Shown: positions 6,503 through 31,335 of the stretch, piece by piece
Numbering within the stretch: position 1 is the stretch's first letter
Layout: each line of letters opens with the position of its first letter
Assembly: GCA_900696505.1 (NCBI GenBank)
Contig: CAADGJ010000064.1
Location: forward strand, 1 to 35,326
DNA from: an uncultured Nitrosospira sp.
GTDB lineage: Bacteria > Nitrospirota > Nitrospiria > Nitrospirales > Nitrospiraceae
Length of the DNA: 35,326 nt
Direction of reading: 5' to 3'
Notes under the pieces: model-generated
Told to the model about the DNA's origin: nothing
Seen by the model: the letters and a program-made list of their open reading frames with translations, nothing else
Database searches by the model: none
Position numbers and translations under genes: made by a program

Positions 6503-7615
6503 CTATGATGTCACTCTCGCACTGTGGCCGCGCTTCTCGTCCTGGCGAATCTCAACCTTGCGCTCGGGTTTCTCTTCTTTTGCCTCTTTGGCCTCGGCTT
6601 TCTTCTCGGCCCCGCGCAAAGGCAGCCCGGCTAGTTCGCGCACCTTGCCTTCGATCTCCTTGGCGATGGCCGGGTTGGTCTTGAGAAAGTCGCGGACGGC
6701 TTCACGCCCCTGGCCCAATCGCTCGCCCTTATAGGAGTACCAGGCGCCGGCCTTCTCCACCACGCGCTTCTCGACTCCCATATCGACAATCTCGCCCGAT
6801 TTGGAAATTCCCTCGGCGAACATGATGTCGAATTCCGCCTGTCTGAACGGCGGGGCCATCTTGTTCTTGACCACCTTGACGCGGACGCGGCTTCCGGTGA
6901 CATCCTGCCCATCCTTGATCGACTCAATCCGACGAATGTCGAGGCGCACGGACGAATAAAACTTCAAGGCGTTGCCGCCCGTCGTGGTTTCCGGATTGCC
7001 GAACATCACACCGATTTTCATGCGGATCTGGTTAATGAAGATCAGGGTCGTCTGCGATTTGGCGATGGCAGCCGTCAGTTTACGCAAGGCCTGGGACATC
7101 AGTCGTGCCTGCAACCCCATATGGGCATCACCCATTTCGCCTTCGATCTCAGCTCGAGGCACCAGCGCCGCGACGGAGTCCACGACAATCACGTCAATGG
7201 CGCCGCTGCGGACGAGGGTCTCCGCAATCTCCAGCGCCTGCTCGCCGGTATCCGGCTGCGACACGAGCAAGTCGTCGGTGTGTACGCCCAACTTCTTGGC
7301 ATAGGTCAAATCCAGCGCATGTTCGGCGTCGATGAAGGCCGCTACGCCACCGGCCTTCTGTGCCTCGGCGATCGCATGCAACGTCAGGGTGGTTTTACCG
7401 GACGACTCCGGTCCAAAAATCTCGATGACGCGCCCACGAGGGAATCCCCCTACGCCGAGCGCAATATCCAATCCCAAGGATCCGCTCGAGATCGCCGGTA
7501 CGTCGGCCGGTCGATCATCGGTCCCCAGCTTCATCACCGCGCCCTTGCCGTATTGTTTTTCAATCTGAGCCAGGGCCAGGTCCAACGCGCGTTTCTTTTC
7601 ATCTTTTTCAGACAT
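6503..7615 (-). CDS. recA: Recombinase RecA
   Basis: ATP-dependent strand-exchange protein and co-protease for LexA. The 370-residue protein has Walker A GPESSGKT at residues 68-75, Walker [11 protein letters not shown], and the L1/L2 loop region including [12 protein letters not shown] and [14 protein letters not shown] long Lys/Glu-rich C-terminal tail (about residues 330-370) is more charged than in E. coli. The ATG is preceded by AAGGAG. It heads the minus-strand run recX, alaS, ruvX, mltG. Upstream lie a TATAAT box and a GTTC direct repeat described separately. Confidence 0.99.
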
Positions 7616-7723
7616 TCATAACTCCTTCTCGCGACATGACTCGTGAAGTGTGCCTGTCTCGCATGCCGTGGGAGACAACGCACCAGCCGGCCATGAGTTG
7701 ACCACGCGCCAGACTCAGACCAG

Positions 7724-7738
7724 GAACGCAGACAGAAC
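7724..7738 (-). promoter_or_regulatory. Candidate LexA-type operator, GTTC-N7-GTTC, over the recA start point
   Basis: On the minus strand the bases are GTTCTGTCTGCGTTC: two GTTC half-sites in direct repeat separated by exactly seven bases. It begins five bases downstream of the TATAAT box, so a bound repressor would block initiation. The direct-repeat form is the LexA recognition type known from Alphaproteobacteria. Assigning it to LexA here is inference, since no lexA gene lies in the window. Confidence 0.45.
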
Positions 7739-7743
7739 AGCGG

Positions 7744-7749
7744 ATTATA
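7744..7749 (-). promoter_or_regulatory. Candidate -10 box of the recA promoter
   Basis: Read on the minus strand this is a perfect TATAAT, about 129 bp upstream of the recA start codon, in a gap that otherwise lacks coding potential. No good -35 hexamer is visible 16-18 bases upstream. That is common at activated or repressed promoters but lowers certainty. The expected start point would be near 7737. Confidence 0.5.
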
Positions 7750-7805
7750 CCGGACTTAGAAGGAAGAAGCCTAGCCCGCACGGGCCTGCGATCCATCCAA
7801 TCTCG

Positions 7806-7973
7806 TCAAGCAAGACGGGATGGAGCCCCTTCGTGAATCTCGCGAAACCATGCATCGAAATCCCCTGATGCTCCATACCTGCTTCCGGCATCGACGTCAA
7901 AAAACCCGCAGCCTTCCGTCATAGCTGCCACGTCTCCGACGTGAGAGGGTATTGGTCTTCGCCCGCCGTGCAT
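7806..7973 (-). CDS. Possible small protein of 55 residues, unknown
   Basis: A short frame ending in TGA at 7806. The ATG at 7973 has AGGAAGGA six bases upstream, which is the main argument that it is translated. An upstream ATG at 8084 would give 92 residues but has no ribosome-binding site. The product has no recognisable domain, no signal peptide and mixed composition (Gly, Ser, Asp; C-terminus DAWFREIHEGAPSRLA). It would be transcribed toward recA. An unlucky open frame in the recA-upstream gap is an equally good explanation. Confidence 0.3.
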   Translation of the reverse strand: MHGGRRPIPSHVGDVAAMTEGCGFFDVDAGSRYGASGDFDAWFREIHEGAPSRLA

Positions 7974-8105
7974 CGCGAGTCCTTCCTGGCGACCTGACGC
8001 GTAAGTATATGAAAATGTGTTTGAGACTGAAGGGAGTTGGCCAAAGAGCGGACGGCTAAAGTCATAGCGCGGACGCGCCGACATTCTTGGTGAGGGACAA
8101 TGCGC

Positions 8106-8122
8106 TTGGCACCAAGCTTGCT
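8106..8122 (+). promoter_or_regulatory. Sigma-54 promoter (-24/-12)
   Basis: TTGGCACCAAGCTTGCT matches the sigma-54 consensus at every conserved position: TGGCAC, five bases, TTGC, then T. The GC of the -12 element is at 8120-8121, predicting a start near 8132, which is 37 bp ahead of the small gene at 8169. A sigma-54 activator with an intact GAFTGA loop is encoded at 16317-17729, so the needed machinery exists, although a regulatory link to that protein is not shown. Confidence 0.75.
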
Positions 8123-8168
8123 CCTACCTGGAGTATTCGTTCACCTCTTACGGATGCAGGAGGCCCCC

Positions 8169-8432
8169 ATGCCACAGCAACACATGGACGATCATTCAGG
8201 ACAATCTGCGGTTCAATTGCATGTGCCCGCCGCTCGCGCGCCACGCGACTTGACCTATGACGAAAAAAAAGCCGCCGAGGCGGCCTTTCGTGGCGAACCG
8301 TTCAATCCCGCCTGGTCTGCCGCGGCAGCAGTCGTGTATGAAGGGATCGTCTCAGCGATGTGTCGCATGCAGGTCGCCTCACTGACTGATATGGAGGCCG
8401 TTTCTGTCGCTGAGGAATGTCTCACGCGATAA
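8169..8432 (+). CDS. Small conserved-looking protein, unknown, behind a sigma-54 promoter
   Basis: An 87-residue soluble protein that I do not recognise. The ATG at 8169 has a strong GGAGG five bases upstream, better than the in-frame ATGs at 8154 or earlier. The sequence starts with a polar His/Gln-rich stretch. It continues with an alanine-rich helical part (YDEKKAAEAAFRGEPFNPAWS, then AAAVVYEGIVSAMCRM) and ends in a short helix with one further Cys. No transmembrane segment or signal peptide is visible. It stands alone on the plus strand, convergent with thpR, 38 bp away. The sigma-54 element at 8106-8122 is its likely promoter and suggests expression under a specific signal such as nitrogen, envelope or motility control. 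Confidence 0.7.
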   Translation: MPQQHMDDHSGQSAVQLHVPAARAPRDLTYDEKKAAEAAFRGEPFNPAWSAAAAVVYEGIVSAMCRMQVASLTDMEAVSVAEECLTR

Positions 8433-8470
8433 ATGACTCGCGCACGAGGTCATGCGGCCAGACGTGTCGC

Positions 8471-9088
8471 TCAGGCTGCCGAAGCTGCCAGCGGACATTC
8501 CCACAGCTTCGAATAGACCGGCCCGGCGGGACGCAATTCGCTTCTCATCATGACGAGCGCCTTGATCGGCAGGACACCGATCATCACCGGTTGATCCAAC
8601 GCCCCGCTTTGAGCCAGGACCTGTCCAACCTGTCGCTCCCCTTCTTTTATTCGTGCTAGCGTCAGATGCGGACTGAACGGCCGCACCTCCGCAGCCAAAC
8701 CGGCCTCCCGACATACCTCCTCCACCGCCCGATACAATGCCTGCAAGCGCTGCCCGTGGTTTCCCTGCTCCCAACTTTCCAGCGGTCCAGCCCACAGAAC
8801 TCTCGGCTGTTGGATTCGAGGGAACGATCCCAGCCGGGAAAAGGGCACTTCAATCATGTGATGATTGGCGACTACTTCGGAAACCACTGCATGAAGGGAT
8901 TCGATCACCTCTTGCGGCGTCTCGCCCAGAAACCTCACTGTCAGATGCATGGAGGCTGGTTGTACCCAACTGACACGCGCCTGCCGTCCGAACGCTGGCT
9001 CCAGCCGTCGCTTGAGATCCTGCTGGATAACCGATAGGGCCGCGCGAAAATCCGGAGGCAGTTCGACGGCCAGAAACGCCCTGATCAT
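8471..9088 (-). CDS. thpR: RNA 2',3'-cyclic phosphodiesterase (2H family, ThpR/LigT)
   Basis: Two-histidine phosphoesterase that opens 2',3'-cyclic phosphate RNA ends; some members show 2'-5' RNA ligase activity in vitro. Both HxT motifs are present, HLT at residues 48-50 and HLT at 141-143, each followed by the expected hydrophobic strand. The length of 205 residues is slightly above the usual 180-190. Its ATG overlaps the cinA stop as ATGA, so the two genes are translationally coupled. The function of such cinA-thpR pairs is not settled. Confidence 0.92.
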   Translation of the reverse strand: MIRAFLAVELPPDFRAALSVIQQDLKRRLEPAFGRQARVSWVQPASMHLTVRFLGETPQEVIESLHAVVSEVVANHHMIEVPFSRLGSFPRIQQPRVLWAGPLESWEQGNHGQRLQALYRAVEEVCREAGLAAEVRPFSPHLTLARIKEGERQVGQVLAQSGALDQPVMIGVLPIKALVMMRSELRPAGPVYSKLWECPLAASAA

Positions 9089-16316: not shown

Positions 16317-17729
16317 TCAATGCTCCGTCATCGAAGCGCGCGGCGAGAGACCGGGAAACCGGCGGGCCTCAAGAGATCGTTCCATTCCATATTGGCGAAG
16401 TCGCCGGTACAACGTGGAGCGGCTAATGCCGAGCTCCTGGGCGGCCCGGCTCAAGTTCCCCTGTGAGAGGGTGAACGCTTTCATGATCAGGTCCGTTTCG
16501 ATCCGCTGCTGATTGACCTTCAGTGAAATTGATCCGTCGTCCTGCGGCGGGGCCTGGCGAGGCAAATCCAAATCGGCAGCGGTGATATGCGTGCCTTCCG
16601 CCATGACCACGGCACGTCCGATCCTGTTGGATAACTCCCGCACATTGCCCGGCCAGGAATAGGCCTGCATCGCCTCCAGCGCCTCACGAGTAAACCCGTA
16701 CAGAGGTTTATTGTAGTGAGCAGCGGCCTGCCGCAGAAACGCCATGGCGATCAGCGACACATCCTCGCCTCGTTCCCGTAACGGAGGCAGGTTGATGTGC
16801 ACCACGCCCAGCCGATAATACAGGTCATCCCGAAAGGTCCCCTTCTCGATCGCTTCCTTCAAATTCACGTTTGTGGCGGCAATGATCCGCACGTTCATCT
16901 CAATCGCCTGATGCCCGCCGACTCGCTCAAACGTGTGATCCTGAAGGAACCGCAGTAACTTGACCTGCAACGCATTGGGAAGTTCACCGACCTCATCGAG
17001 GAACAACGTCCCACCCTGGGCAAACTCCACTTTTCCCTTTTTCTGCCCGACGGCGCCCGTAAAGGCGCCTCGCTCATAGCCAAAAAGCTCGGATTCCAGG
17101 AGACTTTCCGGGATGGCCCCGCAGTTGATCGGAATGAATGGCCCCTGTTTGCGTAATCCCCGGGCGTGAATCGCACGCGCCGTCAGTTCTTTGCCGGTGC
17201 CGCTTTCGCCAGTGATCAGAATCGGCGCATCACTCGTCGACACCTTCCGAATAGCATCAAAAATCCGATTGATACTCGCACTCATGCCCAACATGCCGCT
17301 GAATTCTTCGGGCCCGCCAACCACCATGGCCCCGCGCGCTTCCTGTTCCAGATCGGCGACCCGCGCGACTCGTTCTATACTCTGCAGTAATTGCACTGTA
17401 TCAAGGGACTTGGCGAGGACATCACAGGCCCCGCACTGAACCGCGCGCACCGCCACACTTCGCTCAGGTCTCCCGGTGTACGCGATGACTTTCCCGGAAT
17501 ACCCCGTCTGACGCAATTTCTGGAGCACATTCAACCCTTCTTCGGCAGACGGCTGCGATGGCGAATCGATATCGAGCAGCATGACCGGCGAAGCCTGTTC
17601 ATGAATGGGCAACAGCGTGTCCGTCGTCCACATTGCCGTCGAGACTTCGAACTCGTCCTGAATCAATGCCTGCGCTGCGGACACGGTCGACTGATCAGGT
17701 CCGACAATTACTACACTATGCTTCGCCAC
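16317..17729 (-). CDS. Sigma-54-dependent response regulator (NtrC family)
   Basis: A 470-residue enhancer-binding activator. The receiver (residues 4-115) keeps the phosphoacceptor Asp-53 (MLLDID), Thr-85 region and Lys-107, but the usual acidic pair near the start is reduced to a single Asp (VGPDQS). The AAA+ domain has Walker A GESGTGK at 174-180, the sigma-54-contact loop GAFTGA at 221-226 and Walker B at 241-246. The C-terminus is a Fis-type helix-turn-helix (GNLSRAAQELGISRSTLYRRL). Translation begins at GTG 17729, six bases after AAAGGAGA; the upstream ATG at 17768 has no such site. The partner kinase is not adjacent. It could act on the sigma-54 promoter at 8106, which is untested. Confidence 0.93.
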   Translation of the reverse strand: MAKHSVVIVGPDQSTVSAAQALIQDEFEVSTAMWTTDTLLPIHEQASPVMLLDIDSPSQPSAEEGLNVLQKLRQTGYSGKVIAYTGRPERSVAVRAVQCGACDVLAKSLDTVQLLQSIERVARVADLEQEARGAMVVGGPEEFSGMLGMSASINRIFDAIRKVSTSDAPILITGESGTGKELTARAIHARGLRKQGPFIPINCGAIPESLLESELFGYERGAFTGAVGQKKGKVEFAQGGTLFLDEVGELPNALQVKLLRFLQDHTFERVGGHQAIEMNVRIIAATNVNLKEAIEKGTFRDDLYYRLGVVHINLPPLRERGEDVSLIAMAFLRQAAAHYNKPLYGFTREALEAMQAYSWPGNVRELSNRIGRAVVMAEGTHITAADLDLPRQAPPQDDGSISLKVNQQRIETDLIMKAFTLSQGNLSRAAQELGISRSTLYRRLRQYGMERSLEARRFPGLSPRASMTEH

Positions 17730-17839
17730 GATTCGTCTCCTTTCGGCTGGTAAGACCACGGGCGCCATTCAGGCAAACCATCGTCTCACGAACGGCAAGA
17801 TCGAGATAAGGATGCGGCTCAGGTCCGCATGACAGCACG

Positions 17840-18232
17840 TTACGAGACTATCGACGGAGGGTCGAGCGAGTCGCACATAAACACATCTCCACCGAATGCC
17901 TTCGCCAGCGCTGGCAAGGTGCCATTCGCTTCCTGAGCGGTGCGATCCAGCATCGCGATGATTGGCACTTGCGGGCAGGTACGTTTCAAACGGGGAACCG
18001 CCGTCTGCAGCGGCGTGGAGAATGATGACAACCCAACGACAATCACATCGGGACGCAGTTCCTGAAGGTGATGCTCCAAATGAGGCACAGCGGACGTCAT
18101 GGTGGCTTGGTATCCATGGAGCGCAAACCAGTCGGCATAACGATACCCGCTGGTGACATCTTCATAAATCACCGCGACCGTCCGCCGTTTTCCGGAACGC
18201 GCCCCATTCCCGCCTGTTGATGATGGCCCCAT
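17840..18232 (-). CDS. Degenerate receiver (pseudo-receiver) protein
   Basis: A 130-residue single-domain protein with the CheY-like pattern: VAVIYEDV at strand 1, PDVIVVGLSSF at strand 3 and VPIIAMLDRT at strand 4. Strand 3 shows Gly-67 where the phosphorylated Asp belongs, so it cannot be phosphorylated in the normal way. It may bind a partner constitutively or sense something else. The ATG at 18232 has GGGAGGG six bases upstream; another ATG at 18259, overlapping the previous stop as TGATG, is also possible. It lies 110 bp upstream of the sigma-54 activator on the same strand and may modulate that protein or the nearby kinase system. Confidence 0.8.
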   Translation of the reverse strand: MGPSSTGGNGARSGKRRTVAVIYEDVTSGYRYADWFALHGYQATMTSAVPHLEHHLQELRPDVIVVGLSSFSTPLQTAVPRLKRTCPQVPIIAMLDRTAQEANGTLPALAKAFGGDVFMCDSLDPPSIVS

Positions 18233-18258
18233 AAGATTCCCTCCCCAGATGAATGGCA

Positions 18259-18513
18259 TCAGGTTGTGGTGTGCATCTTTGCGAGTTGGACCAGCCGGTG
18301 TTTCATTTGCGGACCCCACCAGGTCAGGTCCTGTAACATCGCGGCCTCTCGTGGGCTCAGTCTTGTCAGGAGATCCGACCACCCTTGACGGAACGACCCC
18401 GTTCGTCGATCAACAGACGATCGCTCGGCAGCCGCATGGCCTTGCGCTGCGTCAAAAATGGCCACTAATGTCGCGGTATTAGAGATCCAGGCCCTCTGCA
18501 TTTGGAAGAGCAT
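18259..18513 (-). CDS. Possible small protein of 84 residues ahead of the pseudo-receiver
   Basis: An open frame ending 26 bp before the pseudo-receiver start on the same strand, spacing typical of an operon. The second half reads as plausible protein (GWSDLLTRLSPREAAMLQDL, then two Trp). Two ATGs (18513, 18501) lack ribosome-binding sites. No domain is recognised. If real it would be the first gene of the pseudo-receiver and sigma-54 activator group. Confidence 0.4.
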   Translation of the reverse strand: MLFQMQRAWISNTATLVAIFDAAQGHAAAERSSVDRRTGSFRQGWSDLLTRLSPREAAMLQDLTWWGPQMKHRLVQLAKMHTTT

Positions 18514-19288: not shown

Positions 19289-22200
19289 CTATCCCTTTCC
19301 TTCACGAGGTAGTTGCAATGTAATGGTCGTCCCGTTGCCTTCCAGGGTCTCTATTTGCACATCTCCACCAAGCAGCCCGGCTCGCTCCCGCATTCCGAGC
19401 AGACCGAATGATCGGGCGTCGGCAAGTCGATCTTGAGGAATCCCTCGCCCGTTGTCGCGGACCTGCAGCAATAACCCCACGTTCTGCTCTTCCAATCGCA
19501 CGTGCACTTCTGTCGCCTGGGCATGGCGGGTGACATTGGTCAGCGCCTCCTGACAAATGCGAAAGACCGCAGTAGCCTGCTCCGGGTCCACACGCAAATC
19601 CTCATGGCTAACCACGCAATGACAAGTAATGCCGGTACGACGTTGAAAATCCCGGCATTGCCATTCAATCGCCGCGACCAGCCCCAGATCGTCCAATACG
19701 CCGGGGCGTAATTCCGCGACGATCCGCTGCACAGAGGTAATGGTGCTGTCGACCTGCTCCTTCATCCCTCGAATCTTCTCATCGACCTTGGCCCGATCGC
19801 CCGGAACGAGCCGCTCGCCCAACAAACCGCCCAGGCGGGATAAATCGATCTTCAGGCACGTCAGGCCGACACCCAGTTCGTCGTGCAATTCCCGGGCGAT
19901 GCGCCCGCGCTCCTCCTCGCGTATCCCCTCCATTCGCCCCGAGAGTTTTCGCAGCCGACGGAGAGAATCCTGCAGCTGCGCTTCGGCGCGCTTTCGATCC
20001 GTCGTATCCTTGAAGACGACGACCGCGCCGACAAGTTCCCCGCGCTCAGAAATGGGCGTACTCACATATTCCACCGGAAAACTCGTCCCGTCCTTGCGCC
20101 AGAATGCACTGTCCACCTGCTCGCGCACCTCGCCGTCCCGAATCGTCTCCACAATGGGGCAACTCAGCACGCCGAACGGTCGTTCAGCGAGATCGGGAGA
20201 GAACACCAAGGCGTATAGCGAACGGCCGATCATGGCATCTGCTTCCCACCCCAACATCTTGGCCGCCGCCGGGTTCATGAACGTCAAACGCCCCTCGCGA
20301 TCCACCCCGTAGATGCCTTCTCCCGCCGAATTCAGAACGACCTGATTGTGATAATGCAGGCGATCCAGCTGCTCCTCCGCAGTCCGCCGTTCGCTGATAT
20401 CCCGCATAATGATCGTGAAAAACAGATCGGATTTCCCCTTCCACGACGTCACGCTCAACTCCAACGGAAACTCGTCCCCTTGCTTTCGGCGGCCCACGAG
20501 TTCAAGCGTCTTGCTCGTCGATTGCACGCGCTCCAGCACACGCACCCGCTGGACGTTGCGTTCCAGCTCCTCATGGTACTGTTCCGGGATGATCATCGTG
20601 ACAGGCTGTCCGATAATTTCCTCCGCCGAGTATCCGAAGGTCGCCTCCGCTCCCTTGTTCCAGAAGGCCACCTTCATGAGAGCGTTGACGAGAACAATGG
20701 CATCTTTGGTCGATTGCACGATCGATCGCAGTCGTTCTTCACTGACCCGAAGCGCATCTTCGATCCGGCGGCGTTCGGTCACATCGCGAATGATTCCCAA
20801 TACGCCCACCACACGACCCTGCCGCATTTGCGGGGTGCCGACGAATTCTCCAGTCACGTAACCACCTTGTTTTGTGCTGATTTGCATCGAACAGGTGAGC
20901 GGCGTGCCACGCTCGAGAATCGCCTGCAACACGTCCTGACAAAACCCGGCATCGTCTGGATGGAGTAAGGTGGCGAGCGGTTCGCCAATCCATTGCGAAC
21001 GGGACCAGCTGGTCACCGTCTCAAATGCCTGGTTGAGGGAGGTCATGGTCGTATCGGCCGAGAGCGTGAAAATAATATCCCGCGCGCCCTCCACCAGACT
21101 GCGGAATCGATATTCCGACTCAAACAAGGCATCCTGCGCCCGCTTGAGCCAGGTGATGTCATGAAACACCACGACGGTCCCGCACAGCAGTCCAGCGTCA
21201 TCCCGGATGGGTCTGGCATTGATACTCACCCATCGCCCCGGCACTCCCTGCGAGGCCCGCATGTAGACTTCGAGCCAATCAACCTTTTCCCCTTTCAATG
21301 CGCGCGCCAGCGGCCATTCGTCGCGCTGGAATGGCGTCGCCGTGTCGCCATGAAAAAATTCATAGCGGTCTACCCACTCGATCGGGGGAACGTCTCCGGG
21401 AGAAAAACCGACGATGCTTTCGAGGGCGGGATTGGCCAAGACCAGTTTCCCCGCTGCATCGGTGACGACGACGCCATCTCCCATGCTTCGCAATACCGAA
21501 TTGACGATTCTGGTCTGCTCATGGAGAGCCTGCTCAGACCGTTGCAGCGCCGTAGCCCTGTCGTGGAGCGCCTGTTTCGCCTGTGCAATGCCAGCCGATT
21601 GTGTCCTGACCGCATCTTCATAGACCCGCAGCAATTGTTCCGCGACCGCCAAACGCGACTGATGACGGAGACTTGCCGGAGGCTCAGGCGCTGATCCCGA
21701 TTGCTGGCTCGCACCACTGTCTGTGCAAGACGCTTCATCAAACGCGAGCAAGGATGTTTTTAAACTGAGGGCGAGTGATTTGCACAACGCCGCGGTCTCA
21801 CGCGGCACCGGCGTCTTGGAGAACAAAATCACCGCGAATAAATCGCGCGACGGTAACATCCCCCCGAAACACAATACCGACTTCACGCCATATTTCCCGA
21901 CAAATCCGTCCTGGACAGGCACATAGGGACTTCCCACCGCGTCGGGCACATAAAACACGTTATACGTTTTCTCTTCCAAATCGACCAGCCATTCACCATC
22001 CGGCCTCACGTCGAACTCCGTGGACACACCGAACTGATGCAGGAGTTGCGAGAACATCGGAAATTGTTTCACGAAATCGGCGCTGACCATCGGTATGACA
22101 CGATATCGGTGAGAACGATCGACTCGATTCCAATCCGGCTCCGCGCCGGTTGAGGCCACGAGTGTGAAGCAGCGTAAATCGGGGAACGGCGCGATGCCGC

Positions 22201-22441
22201 CGAGCTTTTCTCTGACCAGCTGTTGATGTTCGGCATCCAGCCGGCTGTAGGAAATGGTTTTGAAGCACCGCACAAGGACACAATCGCGTTGCCCCGTGGC
22301 CGGGTCGCCGAGCGTGTCGAAAAGATAGTTCACCGCCTTGGAGGCCGCCTCCTGCAAAGACCGCGACTGTTCGCCCAGCTGGCGCAGGACGGCAGAGCAT
22401 TCCGTCATTTCCAACAGGGAAAAGCGAGCCAGACTATACAC
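19289..22441 (-). CDS. Multi-PAS sensor histidine kinase, HisKA_3 (NarX-like) type
   Basis: A 1,050-residue soluble kinase without transmembrane segments. Residues 15-235 form an N-terminal sensor region of GAF-like appearance. A coiled coil (260-312) leads into four PAS domains at about 312-435, 440-560, 565-688 and 695-820. The HisKA_3 domain has the phosphorylated His-853 in ARELHDELG, and HATPase_c follows with CQEALTNVTRHA (N box) and DNGRGI (996-1001). The GTG at 22441 has no clear ribosome-binding site; ATG 22408 is an alternative. Being cytosolic with stacked PAS domains, it probably senses redox state, oxygen or a small ligand, though no heme or flavin site could be identified. Confidence 0.93.
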   Translation of the reverse strand: MYSLARFSLLEMTECSAVLRQLGEQSRSLQEAASKAVNYLFDTLGDPATGQRDCVLVRCFKTISYSRLDAEHQQLVREKLGGIAPFPDLRCFTLVASTGAEPDWNRVDRSHRYRVIPMVSADFVKQFPMFSQLLHQFGVSTEFDVRPDGEWLVDLEEKTYNVFYVPDAVGSPYVPVQDGFVGKYGVKSVLCFGGMLPSRDLFAVILFSKTPVPRETAALCKSLALSLKTSLLAFDEASCTDSGASQQSGSAPEPPASLRHQSRLAVAEQLLRVYEDAVRTQSAGIAQAKQALHDRATALQRSEQALHEQTRIVNSVLRSMGDGVVVTDAAGKLVLANPALESIVGFSPGDVPPIEWVDRYEFFHGDTATPFQRDEWPLARALKGEKVDWLEVYMRASQGVPGRWVSINARPIRDDAGLLCGTVVVFHDITWLKRAQDALFESEYRFRSLVEGARDIIFTLSADTTMTSLNQAFETVTSWSRSQWIGEPLATLLHPDDAGFCQDVLQAILERGTPLTCSMQISTKQGGYVTGEFVGTPQMRQGRVVGVLGIIRDVTERRRIEDALRVSEERLRSIVQSTKDAIVLVNALMKVAFWNKGAEATFGYSAEEIIGQPVTMIIPEQYHEELERNVQRVRVLERVQSTSKTLELVGRRKQGDEFPLELSVTSWKGKSDLFFTIIMRDISERRTAEEQLDRLHYHNQVVLNSAGEGIYGVDREGRLTFMNPAAAKMLGWEADAMIGRSLYALVFSPDLAERPFGVLSCPIVETIRDGEVREQVDSAFWRKDGTSFPVEYVSTPISERGELVGAVVVFKDTTDRKRAEAQLQDSLRRLRKLSGRMEGIREEERGRIARELHDELGVGLTCLKIDLSRLGGLLGERLVPGDRAKVDEKIRGMKEQVDSTITSVQRIVAELRPGVLDDLGLVAAIEWQCRDFQRRTGITCHCVVSHEDLRVDPEQATAVFRICQEALTNVTRHAQATEVHVRLEEQNVGLLLQVRDNGRGIPQDRLADARSFGLLGMRERAGLLGGDVQIETLEGNGTTITLQLPREGKG

Positions 22442-25057: not shown

Positions 25058-27532
25058 TCACATCCAGTTGTTGATCAACAGGAATGCCGCCCAGTAACTC
25101 GGGTGCGTATGGCCGCGCTGCGAAAGAATCTTTTGCTGTGCCCGCTGCAAGGCCACAGCTTTTGAAATGGCGGGATCCTGCAACTGCCGGTAAAATTCCG
25201 ATACCAGTTCCGTCGTGGTTTCATCATCGGACGTCCACAGACTCGCCAGCGCTGTTCTCGCTCCCGTTTTGACGGCAACCCCGGTCAATCCGAGCGCCGC
25301 ACGATCATCCTCGGCAGCCGTTTCACACGAACTCAGCGTCAGCAGATCCAACGGCTGTTGCCGGTACTGCTGAAGTCCCACCAGCTGGGACAACCGGTCC
25401 ATCGTGATCTTGCCATCATGCGCCAGCACAAACGAATCTCTCGCCTCGGTTCCGACAACCGTATGAGATGCCACATGAACGATCCCCAGGCCCTGGTCCT
25501 TGATCTCCTCTTCCAAGGTCGGCGTAGAGAACTGTTTGTTCATGAGCAGCTTCCCGCCGTACATCGTTCTGATCGCCTGCACTTCGGTCTCCGCGTATCG
25601 CGGCGCGGACTGTCCCTCGACCGATTCAGTCAGCCCCACCGACAGCAAACTTCCCTTGCGGCGTTGAGCTCCATTCATATCGGTCAGCGCCAGACTCGGC
25701 GTGACTGCGACGGCGAGCGAATCGACGAGAAAATGCCGCCCATCGTGGAGCGCTCCCATGGGAATGGTCCTGAGCGATCCGTCGGCTACTACCACGAGCG
25801 TATGGACACCGGCGCCTTGCAAGTCCTGTTGAATGGGTGCAACGAGCCACCCGTGGAGCGTCTGCGCGGAAGACAGGTAATTCTGTGATTGCGAATCCTG
25901 GATCAGCCGCCTGAACGAACGAATTTCTTTCGTCAGCTTTTCTCCCGCCACAGGAACTCTGACTTGTTTGAGTCCGTTGGACGTTTCCAGGAGCAGTTCG
26001 AGCCGGTCCGGAAGGGCGATCGGATAGATCACCGCCGTGCCTGGCGCCAACGCCCCCGCGCCTCGATGACTCGCCACCGTCGCGACACAATCGTCCTGGA
26101 AATAATCCTGTAGCTCGGCCGCCCGCGACACCTCAATCGTTTCCTTGACCTTCACCAGCAACTGGTCATTTTGCTCGGGAGTCTTCGCCGCCGCCGCTCT
26201 CCGCAGCAAGACATCTTCATATTCGACGAACAATGGAGCCACGGATTCGTAGTACGAATGATGCCGTCCCTGATATCCGACGGAATATTCGTAGTGAATC
26301 GGCTTCAACAGCGTCACGGCACGCTGATACGCGGCCAGGGATTCATCTTCCTTGCCCTCCGCCCGCAACAATCTCGCCGTTTGCCACTGCCAGCGGTAGA
26401 GCGATTCCGGCGCATTCACCTTTTGAGCGGCGAACGTGGCTTTTCGCGTATACTCCAGCGCCTCGGGATTGCGATGCTCCTGCTCCCGCAATCCACCCAG
26501 ATAACCCCAGGCATACGATTGCCCGCGCGCATCGCCGATGCGTTCCGCCACTTCACCGGCCGCAGTAAAGGCTTCCGATGATTGGCGCAACAGACCGGAC
26601 GCAGAGCCGGTAGAAGCCACCGCTTCCGTCGCGCGCCCCTTCCCCGCATCTCTCTTCGCTGCCACACCGGATTTCCCCGTTGAGGCGGCAAACAACTCCT
26701 GATACCCAAGGCCAATGTTCAGCAAGCCAGCGGTCTTTGCCTGGCCGTCTCCAAGTGATCGGACATCCGACCAGGCTTGGTCAAGATGGCGGTGCGCTTC
26801 GCCCAATTGTTGATTCTGCAACAAGGCCATGGCGCCATTGATCTGTGCCGTGGCTGCCAGCGCCTGCTGTTTGGTTTCGGTGGCAAGGGCTCGGCTTTCC
26901 GCATAGACGTCGATCGCCTCAGCGAATTGCCGGCGAGCCGTCAGGGCATTACCCAGATCATTTAAAATTCCGGCAACCAGGACAGGTTTTTTCTCCTCCC
27001 GGGCCAGCGTCAGGGCTTTGGTCAAATGTTCGGTCGCAGGTTCGTCTTTTCCGAGGACATGAAAGGTGTTGCCGAGCTGAGCGAGAATCGTTGCGGTGAG
27101 ACCGCGTTCGCCGGCTTGCTCCGACAGTTTCAATGCCGCCTGCAACGTGCCCTGTGCACGGCGGATCTGCCCCTCCTGCTGAAGCGCATGCGCCACGTTG
27201 ATTAAGGCCTGACTTTGCTCTTTGATCTGTCCGGTTTCTTCGTACCCGCGCGCCGCATTCATCCAATGCGTAGCCGCCTGGGCAAACGCGCCTTGCTGAA
27301 ACTGTGTCGTCCCCTGTCGCATTTCTTGCGCCGGCGTGATCGACGACGTGCTAGAGCCGCCCAACAACTCCAGAGCCATCCCGCTAGCAGGCCAGGTGAA
27401 GCTGCTCAAGGCCAGCACTCCCAGGCTCAGTATCGTCAATGGCGACGACAGGGTGCGCGGGCCGGCCGAACCAGTAGCCCCATGGCTCCGCTTCATGCCG
27501 CGGCGAGTGACCATATTACGCATCGTAGGCAT
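25058..27532 (-). CDS. Exported TPR-CHAT caspase-like protease
   Basis: An 824-residue protein. A long basic N-terminus and the hydrophobic ILSLGVLALSSFTWPASGMA form a signal peptide. About ten TPR-type helical repeats fill residues 65-430 (for example AALKLSEQAGERGLTATILAQ). The CHAT domain occupies about 500-824, with His-690 in VHVASH and Cys-736 in TLSSCETA as the catalytic dyad; the residue after His is Thr instead of the usual Gly. CHAT proteases cut after specific residues in partner proteins. The ATG at 27532 has AAGGAGG, 18 bp after the exoprotein stop, so it is cotranscribed with the secretion pair. Its likely target is the exoprotein or its transporter, which is inference. Confidence 0.9.
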   Translation of the reverse strand: MPTMRNMVTRRGMKRSHGATGSAGPRTLSSPLTILSLGVLALSSFTWPASGMALELLGGSSTSSITPAQEMRQGTTQFQQGAFAQAATHWMNAARGYEETGQIKEQSQALINVAHALQQEGQIRRAQGTLQAALKLSEQAGERGLTATILAQLGNTFHVLGKDEPATEHLTKALTLAREEKKPVLVAGILNDLGNALTARRQFAEAIDVYAESRALATETKQQALAATAQINGAMALLQNQQLGEAHRHLDQAWSDVRSLGDGQAKTAGLLNIGLGYQELFAASTGKSGVAAKRDAGKGRATEAVASTGSASGLLRQSSEAFTAAGEVAERIGDARGQSYAWGYLGGLREQEHRNPEALEYTRKATFAAQKVNAPESLYRWQWQTARLLRAEGKEDESLAAYQRAVTLLKPIHYEYSVGYQGRHHSYYESVAPLFVEYEDVLLRRAAAAKTPEQNDQLLVKVKETIEVSRAAELQDYFQDDCVATVASHRGAGALAPGTAVIYPIALPDRLELLLETSNGLKQVRVPVAGEKLTKEIRSFRRLIQDSQSQNYLSSAQTLHGWLVAPIQQDLQGAGVHTLVVVADGSLRTIPMGALHDGRHFLVDSLAVAVTPSLALTDMNGAQRRKGSLLSVGLTESVEGQSAPRYAETEVQAIRTMYGGKLLMNKQFSTPTLEEEIKDQGLGIVHVASHTVVGTEARDSFVLAHDGKITMDRLSQLVGLQQYRQQPLDLLTLSSCETAAEDDRAALGLTGVAVKTGARTALASLWTSDDETTTELVSEFYRQLQDPAISKAVALQRAQQKILSQRGHTHPSYWAAFLLINNWM

Positions 27533-27550
27533 GACGTCCTCCTTGGGCAA

Positions 27551-29104: not shown

Positions 29105-30913
29105 CTAAAATGCCTCTACGACTAATTGCAGATGGATGCCGTGATCCTGGAGGTTGTTGCGATCGGTATCGTATCGCTTCAACTGTTTTCCATAATAGAG
29201 TTCGAAATGACTCCCGCGCCAAAAATTCCAGATCACGCCAGCACCAAGACTGGCCAATGTTTTGGGGGGAGTACCGGGAGTCTGGGCAGTGGTTTGCCAG
29301 CCATGGCCGAAATCGAAAAACGGCGCCAGAAAGACGGAGTCCACACCCGCCTTTGTCGTATAGACCGGCACCCGCGCTTCAATCGATGCCATTGCGGCAT
29401 TGTCTCGAATCAGCGTGAACTCGCGATACCCGCGGACGCTATACCGTCCGCCGACGGCAATTTGTTCAAGCGGGAAGAGGTGATCGTTGGACAATTGCAC
29501 CACTCCGCGGCTCACTAACTGCGTCCGCCAAAACGGAAGTTGCCGGATCCACTGGGCTTCGCCCAACCAGGAAAAGAACCGCGCATCCGGCAGGTTCGGA
29601 TCAGCATTGGCGGTCGCCCCCATCGCTCCGATACCGACGGAAAACCGCGACAAAAGGGAAATCACCTGTTCGGCGGAACGTTGGGCATACTCCTGCCCGA
29701 AACGGAGCGCGGTCACACGGAATCTTCCGTTCGGCGCCCCGGTGATGAGCTCAAACGGATTGCTGCCCAACGTGCTCTCATTCCTGGCATGTTCGCCCGT
29801 GAGGGAAAACGCCAGCTCCTGGTCAGCCTTCCTGATCACGGGGTGCCTGACCGAGAGCCCGAAAATCTGAGCTTTGTTTTTGATATCCAATGAATCGAAC
29901 GGCGACTCCTCGACGCCGAAATCAAACCGGCGATACTGCAGTGCGACGGTCGTATCGCGAGGGCCTACCGGGATTTCATATTTAAAGTTGAGCATCGGGT
30001 TGACGCCGGCGGAGCGACCATATTGCAAACTCAGCGTATCGCCGAAACCCAACAGGTTCTGGTGAGCTAAGGTGATGAAGCCTTGTTCCGCACCGACGAC
30101 GGGAGATTGATAGTTGTTGAACTCCAACCAGGCCTTGAGCGGGTTGGCTTCCTTCACCTTCACATTGAGCGTATTTTCTCCAATCGTGGCACCGGGCAAG
30201 AGTTCCGCATTGATGCGTTCGATCCTCGGGTTGGCCTGCATGACGCGCAACCGTTCCTGGAGCGCTTCAACCTGGAGCGGAGGGCCGGCCGCCAGATTGA
30301 CGCGGCTCTGAAAATACGACGGCCGGAACCACTTGGTATCCTCGACGTTGACCTGCGTGATCTTTCCCTCGATGATCTGCATGGTCAGGGTGCCGTCGGC
30401 GACATCCTGCTCCGGGACCACCGCACCGGACGTCAAATAGCCATGGTTGACGTAGTAGTAGGTGAGCGCGAGACGCAACGATTCCAAGTCTTCCGCCGTC
30501 AACTCGCGATTCGTATATGGCGCGGTGATTTCCGAGAGTTGTTGCGCCGTAAAGGCGGTATTGCCGACCAGCCGGATATCCTTGACCATGATCTTGGGTC
30601 CCTTGGCAGCCTGATCGAGCGCACCAGGAGGCGTGGGTGTCGGGAAATCAAGCGCAGGGGGCTGTGCGGGCGGAGGCACGACGGGTAACTGGGGCGGTTT
30701 CGGAGGCAACGGCCCGAGCTGCGAGCCGGTTTGTGAGTGAGCGGGCACGACCAGCGCGCCAAGCAACAGCACAGCCGCCAGACCAGCAACGGTTCCACGC
30801 CATCTACGCAACACATCCCCGCGATTGGATGAACAGCCGGACGCATCCAAACGCGAGTCAGCCGCCCCGGATATTCCTGCTGCCGGCCCCACTGATTTCT
30901 TCACACAAGCCAT
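29105..30913 (-). CDS. Two-partner-secretion outer-membrane transporter (ShlB/FhaC/HecB family)
   Basis: A 602-residue Omp85-superfamily pore that exports the TPS exoprotein. The n-region is unusually long (about 38 residues), then the signal WRGTVAGLAAVLLLGALVVPAHS. A Pro-rich linker (66-98) precedes POTRA 1 (about 107-184, starting IMVKDIRLVGNTAF), POTRA 2 (185-257) and a 16-strand barrel. The barrel has the conserved VRGY motif in RYSVRGYREFTL and ends in the aromatic LQLVVEAF signature. The ATG at 30913 has GGGGAGG upstream; an internal GTG near residue 34 would shorten the n-region. First gene of the secretion-CHAT cluster. Its partner is the compact exoprotein next door. Confidence 0.93.
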   Translation of the reverse strand: MACVKKSVGPAAGISGAADSRLDASGCSSNRGDVLRRWRGTVAGLAAVLLLGALVVPAHSQTGSQLGPLPPKPPQLPVVPPPAQPPALDFPTPTPPGALDQAAKGPKIMVKDIRLVGNTAFTAQQLSEITAPYTNRELTAEDLESLRLALTYYYVNHGYLTSGAVVPEQDVADGTLTMQIIEGKITQVNVEDTKWFRPSYFQSRVNLAAGPPLQVEALQERLRVMQANPRIERINAELLPGATIGENTLNVKVKEANPLKAWLEFNNYQSPVVGAEQGFITLAHQNLLGFGDTLSLQYGRSAGVNPMLNFKYEIPVGPRDTTVALQYRRFDFGVEESPFDSLDIKNKAQIFGLSVRHPVIRKADQELAFSLTGEHARNESTLGSNPFELITGAPNGRFRVTALRFGQEYAQRSAEQVISLLSRFSVGIGAMGATANADPNLPDARFFSWLGEAQWIRQLPFWRTQLVSRGVVQLSNDHLFPLEQIAVGGRYSVRGYREFTLIRDNAAMASIEARVPVYTTKAGVDSVFLAPFFDFGHGWQTTAQTPGTPPKTLASLGAGVIWNFWRGSHFELYYGKQLKRYDTDRNNLQDHGIHLQLVVEAF

Positions 30914-31335
30914 CAAGGCCTCCCCTCTTTCTTGATGACGGGGCACGCAGATTCGTGAATCAGTGCCCGTAAAATCATCGGCTTTCGATATTTGTCCTGA
31001 ATCACACCGCTGCTGCGGTCTGCAACACGCACTCTTCAGAAACAACTCGCAGTCGCGCGACAATCGGCTATCGGCCGTGGCGATACGTAGGTGTTTGGAG
31101 AATCCGTCCTGCGAAGGAACTGCTTATAACATGTCTCGACGCAAATTACTCCTGGGGCCACAAAGTTTTTTGGCCGGGAGAAATGAATGGGTCAGGTTGG
31201 AACAGCGCAGGCGACAGGAGAGTCACGGTTTCTGAGATGGGACACATGATGGGAGATCAACGCGGAATCGGTCGTCGTATCGACATGGTCTATCCGGCCC
31301 GATGATGTACGTATATGCCGATGCAGCCCCGCCCG
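30914..31335. other. Non-coding upstream region of the secretion-CHAT cluster
   Basis: A gap of 422 bp with no supported gene on either strand. It must hold the promoter of the cluster and the end of the tryptophanase message. Visible elements are the leader stem-loop, a 10-bp palindrome GTCGCGCGAC at 31052-31061, and a TTATAA on the minus strand near 31122-31130 without a good -35. No sigma-54 element or clear terminator was found. Confidence 0.5.
30941..30968 (-). promoter_or_regulatory. Stem-loop in the leader of the transporter gene
   Basis: GGGCAC pairs with GTGCCC, and inside them GATTC with GAATC, giving a two-tier hairpin 28 bases long, about 28-55 bp ahead of the transporter ATG. 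It lacks a T-run. Its role is unknown. Confidence 0.4.

Follow-up and report, generated by a model that had tools for sequence, protein, structure and literature searches.

The window, i.e., the whole analyzed stretch of DNA with a length of 35,326 nucleotides, comes from contig C64 of the genome designated G000, the named relatives of which belong to Nitrospira. Nitrite oxidation is a trait of Nitrospira bacteria. The locus under study contains a small gene encoding a protein of 87 aa, which is preceded by a sigma-54-type -24/-12 element, TGGCACCAAGCTTGCT, and by a ribosome-binding site (Table 1). The element is directly preceded by T at position 8106, and the distance from its end to the start codon is 46 nt. 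The gene is apparently monocistronic, since it is flanked by convergent thpR on the opposite strand and by divergent recA on its upstream side. A longer frame (110 aa) starting from ATG 8100 was rejected: its start would fall inside the promoter, the leader length varies by 2–3 nt between close relatives, and AGGAGG is found only at ATG 8169. The GGAGG core is located directly 5' of the ATG in 27/27 element-bearing loci of the genus.

Table 1. Features of the window at and around the gene encoding the 87-aa protein.
Feature	Coordinates	Strand	Remarks
recA	6503-7615	minus	divergent, upstream of the 87-aa gene
GTCA-N18-GTCA repeat, candidate enhancer (UAS)	7896-7921	+	kept in 25/27 loci
TAAGTATATGAAAA, IHF-like box	8002-8015	+	TGAAAA kept in 25/27 loci
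Sigma-54 -24/-12 element TGGCACCAAGCTTGCT	8107-8122	+	exact match, kept in congeners
Predicted transcription start	8133	+	spacing rule only; C of GC taken as -12
Ribosome-binding site AGGAGG	8158-8163	+	read from sequence
87-aa protein gene (P0001)	8169-8432	+	ATG 8169, stop 8430-8432, 87 codons
Core module, residues 26-66, predicted helical hairpin	8244-8366	+	invariant columns, pLDDT, dN/dS
thpR/LigT	8471-9088	minus	convergent, beyond the 87-aa gene
Enhancer-binding protein: response regulator receiver, AAA+, Fis-type HTH	16317-17768	minus	~8 kb from the gene
Multi-PAS histidine kinase	19289-22441	minus	same stretch as the TPR-CHAT and ShlB-type genes
TPR-CHAT protein	25058-27550	minus	
ShlB-type two-partner secretion outer-membrane protein	29105-31063	minus	

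According to the published description (PMC3538637), the consensus of sigma-54 (RpoN) promoters is TGGCACG-N4-TTGCW. The element of the window, an exact TGGCACN5TTGCT, contains the GG and GC dinucleotides with the sigma-54 spacing. The preliminary description of this DNA had reported a perfect -24/-12 element before a gene with a strong ribosome-binding site and had noticed no other perfect match in the gaps inspected. Both observations hold: TGGCACCAAGCTTGCT corresponds exactly to TGGCACN5TTGCW, AGGAGG is present, and no second exact match occurs in the window. With up to two mismatches to this pattern, 18 matches were found in the window versus 17 expected; hence, only the perfect match stands out. 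The whole G000 genome contains four exact sites versus six for the reversed-pattern control. In seven good congeners, 60 exact sites were found versus 14 reversed ones, and therefore the motif is in use by the genus. A perfect match alone proves little, and conservation is the decisive test.

The genus set comprised 29 genomes, G000 included, and 28 of them carry an orthologue of the gene; in G028 (66% complete), only the paralogue was found and the orthologue was not detected. The element lies upstream of the orthologue in 27 of the 28 congeners, in 25 of them as an exact match and in two with one change (TGGCAT, loci L022 and L029). In G003, the orthologue (L122) is present, and the best element match has three mismatches. 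In G278, which belongs to another genus, the element is exact, and in G333 it has two mismatches. Mean information content was 1.80 bits per position in the element versus 0.35 in the flanks, with TGGCA and TTGCT invariant in 28/28 sequences; these 28 sequences were preselected at no more than one mismatch, the proportion within the genus before selection being 27/28. Over 351 pairs of sequences, the mean identity was 0.912 for the element, 0.338 for the upstream 48 nt, and 0.366 for the downstream sequence. In 267 of these pairs, the upstream identity was below 35%, and the element identity among them was still 0.897, the pairs not being independent since all of them derive from 27 related sequences. 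The element was found in 0 of 428 control windows. Locus L017, the upstream sequence of which is missing, was excluded from the pairwise and control-window comparisons. Thus, the joint conservation of element and gene, proposed for checking in the preliminary description, is observed in the genus, and the promoter bases do not vary freely in relatives, which had been named there as the outcome that would speak against the reading.

The distance between the element and the ATG is 46–53 nt in 25/27 loci, and 61 and 82 nt in the other two. The neighboring genes were detected in part of the loci, namely, recA in 12/30 and thpR in 16/30 (contig ends truncate some of the loci). In G023 (Candidatus Nitrospira defluvii), the orthologue is flanked by different genes. 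The element therefore tracks the gene and not recA, and it is retained in two or more genomic contexts.

Alignment of the upstream regions revealed two more conserved blocks, by which the putative promoter region reaches approximately 210 bp further upstream than had been described preliminarily. The first block, GTCA-N14..18-GTCA, was sought 280–160 nt upstream of the element and is located 198–234 nt before it in 25/27 loci; in control windows of the same loci, such a repeat was found in 7/1240 cases. The second block is the TGAAAA of the TAASTNTWTGAAAA box, located 97–100 nt before the element in 25/27 loci. Both blocks are absent in L022 and L205. In PMC3682984, the IHF consensus is given as WATCAANNNNTTR, and the box of the window, TAAGTATATGAAAA, corresponds to the reverse of this consensus with two mismatches. 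Among the 25 loci, the box has one mismatch to the consensus in three and two mismatches in 22, and it is the best or joint best IHF match within 300 nt upstream in 24. The combination TGAAAA-N80..110-element occurs at 18 places in the 29 genomes, 15 of which are at the 87-aa gene (reversed pattern, 0); the arrangement is therefore almost specific to this gene. The GTCA repeat together with the element was found at eight places, seven of them at the 87-aa gene, within a distance range that leaves out the defluvii-type spacing.

The gene rpoN (PF04552) was detected in 58 of 61 relatives, including all 47 good genomes, and the match in G000 has an E-value of 5e-57. Enhancer-binding proteins (PF00158) give 24–34 matches per genome in five genomes (24 in G000), and genes of the IHF/HU family number 3–4 per genome in six genomes. 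With rpoN, enhancer-binding proteins, IHF/HU genes, and both boxes present, the region has the appearance of a complete promoter of the enhancer-dependent sigma-54 type. The enhancer-binding protein encoded in the window is a candidate activator by proximity only; in the sequence before its gene (positions 17769–18300), no GTCA repeat, TGAAAA, or sigma-54 element was found. PilR binds tandem TGTC repeats, which provides only a lead to the putative activator acting at the GTCA repeats. According to published work, sigma-54-dependent regulators adjoin nitrite oxidoreductase genes in Nitrospira.

Elsewhere in the congeners, exact elements precede lpxC and genes for a universal stress protein, for CBS-domain proteins, and for a BACON-domain protein that seems to carry a signal peptide. 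The sequence TGGCACRAGCATTGCT is located 32–33 nt before the GTG of lpxC in five congeners (L035, L044, L087, L096, and L112; the identity of LpxC was established by Pfam for L044), which may place the synthesis of lipid A under sigma-54 control in these bacteria. The CBS-domain protein lies behind a YAAGN-type element in G023 and G018 (L063, L104), where both upstream boxes are absent in the stretches read by eye; for the CBS protein of G006 (L108), the spacer differs. In addition, a second tiny orphan, a peptide of 30–41 aa (MELVMGGLL...) with one apparent membrane helix, was found behind an identical element, TGGCACGGCTGTTGCT, in six loci (L004, L051, L052, L064, L103, and L106), namely, G000:C307:2617-2632 and five congeners. 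In the loci with a reported start, TGGCACGGCTGTTGCT is located ~74–79 nt before the ATG of this peptide.

The median dN/dS of the 87-aa gene was 0.126 (28 pairs, eight close orthologues), and that of residues 26–66 was 0.015. The 87-aa protein is therefore real, and its frame is under strong purifying selection. The core module contains 14 invariant columns among 37 homologues. The AlphaFold2 program predicts two helices, at residues 30–41 and 51–84, with pLDDT of ~91–98 over residues 31–70 (mean pLDDT of the model 76.9, pTM 0.56). A profile search of the 87-residue protein, suggested in the preliminary description, found 0 families in each of Pfam, NCBIfam, and PHROGs with E-values up to 10. 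Foldseek analysis against PDB found nothing with an E-value under 3, and searches of PDB by sequence yielded no useful match. By eye, neither a signal peptide nor a membrane helix was seen in the sequence. A cysteine is present within the last six residues in 27/28 type I proteins and is absent from the paralogue sequences compared.

The module was found in 130 of 395 genomes of the phylum, all in the same order among the matches listed. A pattern search in the species collection, which reaches near relatives only, gave among the 80 loci listed 76 with Nitrospir- titles, three from Nitrospinota, and one from Proteobacteria; the latter four metagenome bins may be mislabelled. Thus, of the term "small orphan protein" used earlier, the part concerning the lack of a known family stands, but the protein is not a singleton: it belongs to a family with paralogues that is almost confined to Nitrospirales. 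Among the papers listed in searches of the openly accessible literature on Nitrospira sigma-54/RpoN and on DUF6573, nothing on the 87-aa gene was found. Within the libraries and literature searched, the protein module appears to be undescribed.

Most congeners carry a second copy of the module, a protein of 66 aa. Its gene has a near-perfect sigma-70 promoter, TTGAC-N17-18-TATTAT, in 22/22 loci (L065-L084, L210, and L211), and its message is probably leaderless, since the -10 hexamer ends 5–7 nt before the ATG. The sigma-54 element is absent before the paralogue in 20/20 loci checked (best match with two mismatches). In other genera, the module forms the N-terminal part of proteins 211–226 aa long. 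The C-terminal region of these fused relatives resembles DUF6573 (PF20213) with E-values of 8.1e-5 and 0.005, the scores of 23.1 and 17.3 bits being below the Pfam cut-off of 27. Modeling of one fused form shows the hairpin, a low-confidence linker, and a separate domain (pTM 0.50); Foldseek analysis of a fused relative against PDB found nothing under an E-value of 0.05, and the best match had low coverage. A small CxxC...CxxC zinc-ribbon-like ORF is located just upstream of the module genes in other genera (L207, L208, and L209).

Taken together, these data make it very probable that a single small gene is controlled by a sigma-54 promoter of the enhancer-dependent type; its product is taken to be a docking module. 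The earlier claim that a small orphan protein is expressed from a genuine sigma-54 promoter is supported by the conservation of the element, the occurrence of rpoN in 58/61 relatives, and the lack of a family match. According to the proposed mechanism, sigma-54 RNA polymerase would wait in the closed state at the element, an AAA+ enhancer-binding protein would bind the GTCA repeats, and an IHF-like protein would bend the DNA at approximately the IHF-like box. When a signal arrives, the enhancer-binding protein would contact the polymerase and open the promoter, and the transcript would start near position 8133, with a leader of 36 nt. The helical hairpin of ~40 residues would then dock on a partner. 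This hairpin probably binds a family-wide partner, since the same module heads longer proteins, with a linker and then a distinct domain behind it. Because its sister gene has a strong sigma-70, apparently leaderless promoter, the sigma-54 copy would be the one under conditional control. The element with its conservation, the upstream boxes, the coding gene, and the family are evident at the sequence level; conservation and strong precedent argue for the promoter half of the mechanism, and only the protein architecture suggests the docking half.

The spacer of the element is nearly fixed as YAAGN (AA in 28/28 sequences, G in 27/28), and these five near-fixed bases exceed what sigma-54 alone requires, and therefore the block may be recognized by a second binder as well. 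The 16-bp block could accordingly be a conserved operator or another DNA site, with the gene driven by a different promoter. We nevertheless regard this as improbable: the bases that do not vary are exactly the sigma-54 consensus ones, the ATG follows at a near-fixed distance, and no sigma-70-type promoter was found in 7616–8600. In addition, T at position 7 interrupts the palindrome TTGGCACCAA in 14/28 sequences. A palindromic operator was rejected, as neither TTGGCACCAA nor the AAGCTT palindrome of the window is kept in relatives.

Slightly less credence is given to a silent or repressing sigma-54 site, or to the promoter of a small RNA instead of the protein gene. Sigma-54 is able to bind without an activator, but in each of the 27 loci the ribosome-binding site and ATG follow the element with fixed spacing, and purifying selection on the reading frame is strong; as for a small RNA, no Rfam match was found in the window. 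A chance match beside an unrelated ORF, consistent with the unremarkable count of exact sites in G000, has practically no probability, being contradicted by the conservation of the element (27/28; 0.912 versus 0.338) and by the TGAAAA-plus-element composite, which occurs mostly at the 87-aa gene and never in reversed form.

The conservation of the putative enhancer-dependent sigma-54 promoter suggests a preserved switch by which the cell would make the 87-aa protein only under a particular condition. A more specific version is tentatively mentioned, although we think it rather doubtful: within a set of docking modules specific to Nitrospirales, the protein would be the member made conditionally. 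The constitutive sister and the fused forms would all act on one common partner in the cell. A single enhancer-binding protein dedicated to the sigma-54 copy, which has a C-terminal cysteine tail of its own, would release this copy to displace or re-target the others under one condition, e.g., an altered nitrogen or redox supply. Nitrospira possesses some 30 enhancer-binding proteins per genome, and for one sigma-54 circuit the 87-aa gene could provide a reporter that is clean, conserved, and limited to a single gene, for which the putative enhancer, bend site, and promoter as well as the product have been delimited. It also draws attention to an apparently undescribed protein module that is hardly found outside the order to which these nitrifiers belong.

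The promoter itself fits well into a known class. Like other enhancer-dependent sigma-54 promoters, it has GG and GC with the correct spacing, upstream repeats, and an IHF-like box between the repeats and the promoter, and the genome encodes rpoN and enhancer-binding proteins. It differs in that the position after TGGCAC is C/T instead of the consensus G and in that the YAAGN spacer is conserved. Exterior-centred sigma-54 regulons are described in Francke et al. 2011 (PMC3162934); the congener elements before lpxC and the BACON, universal stress, and CBS genes agree with this pattern, whereas no cell-surface sign was seen in the 87-aa sequence. Compared with DUF6573 (PF20213), the longer proteins that share the N-terminal module have a DUF6573-like C-terminal region, whereas the 87-aa protein corresponds to the N-terminal module only and has no DUF6573 match.
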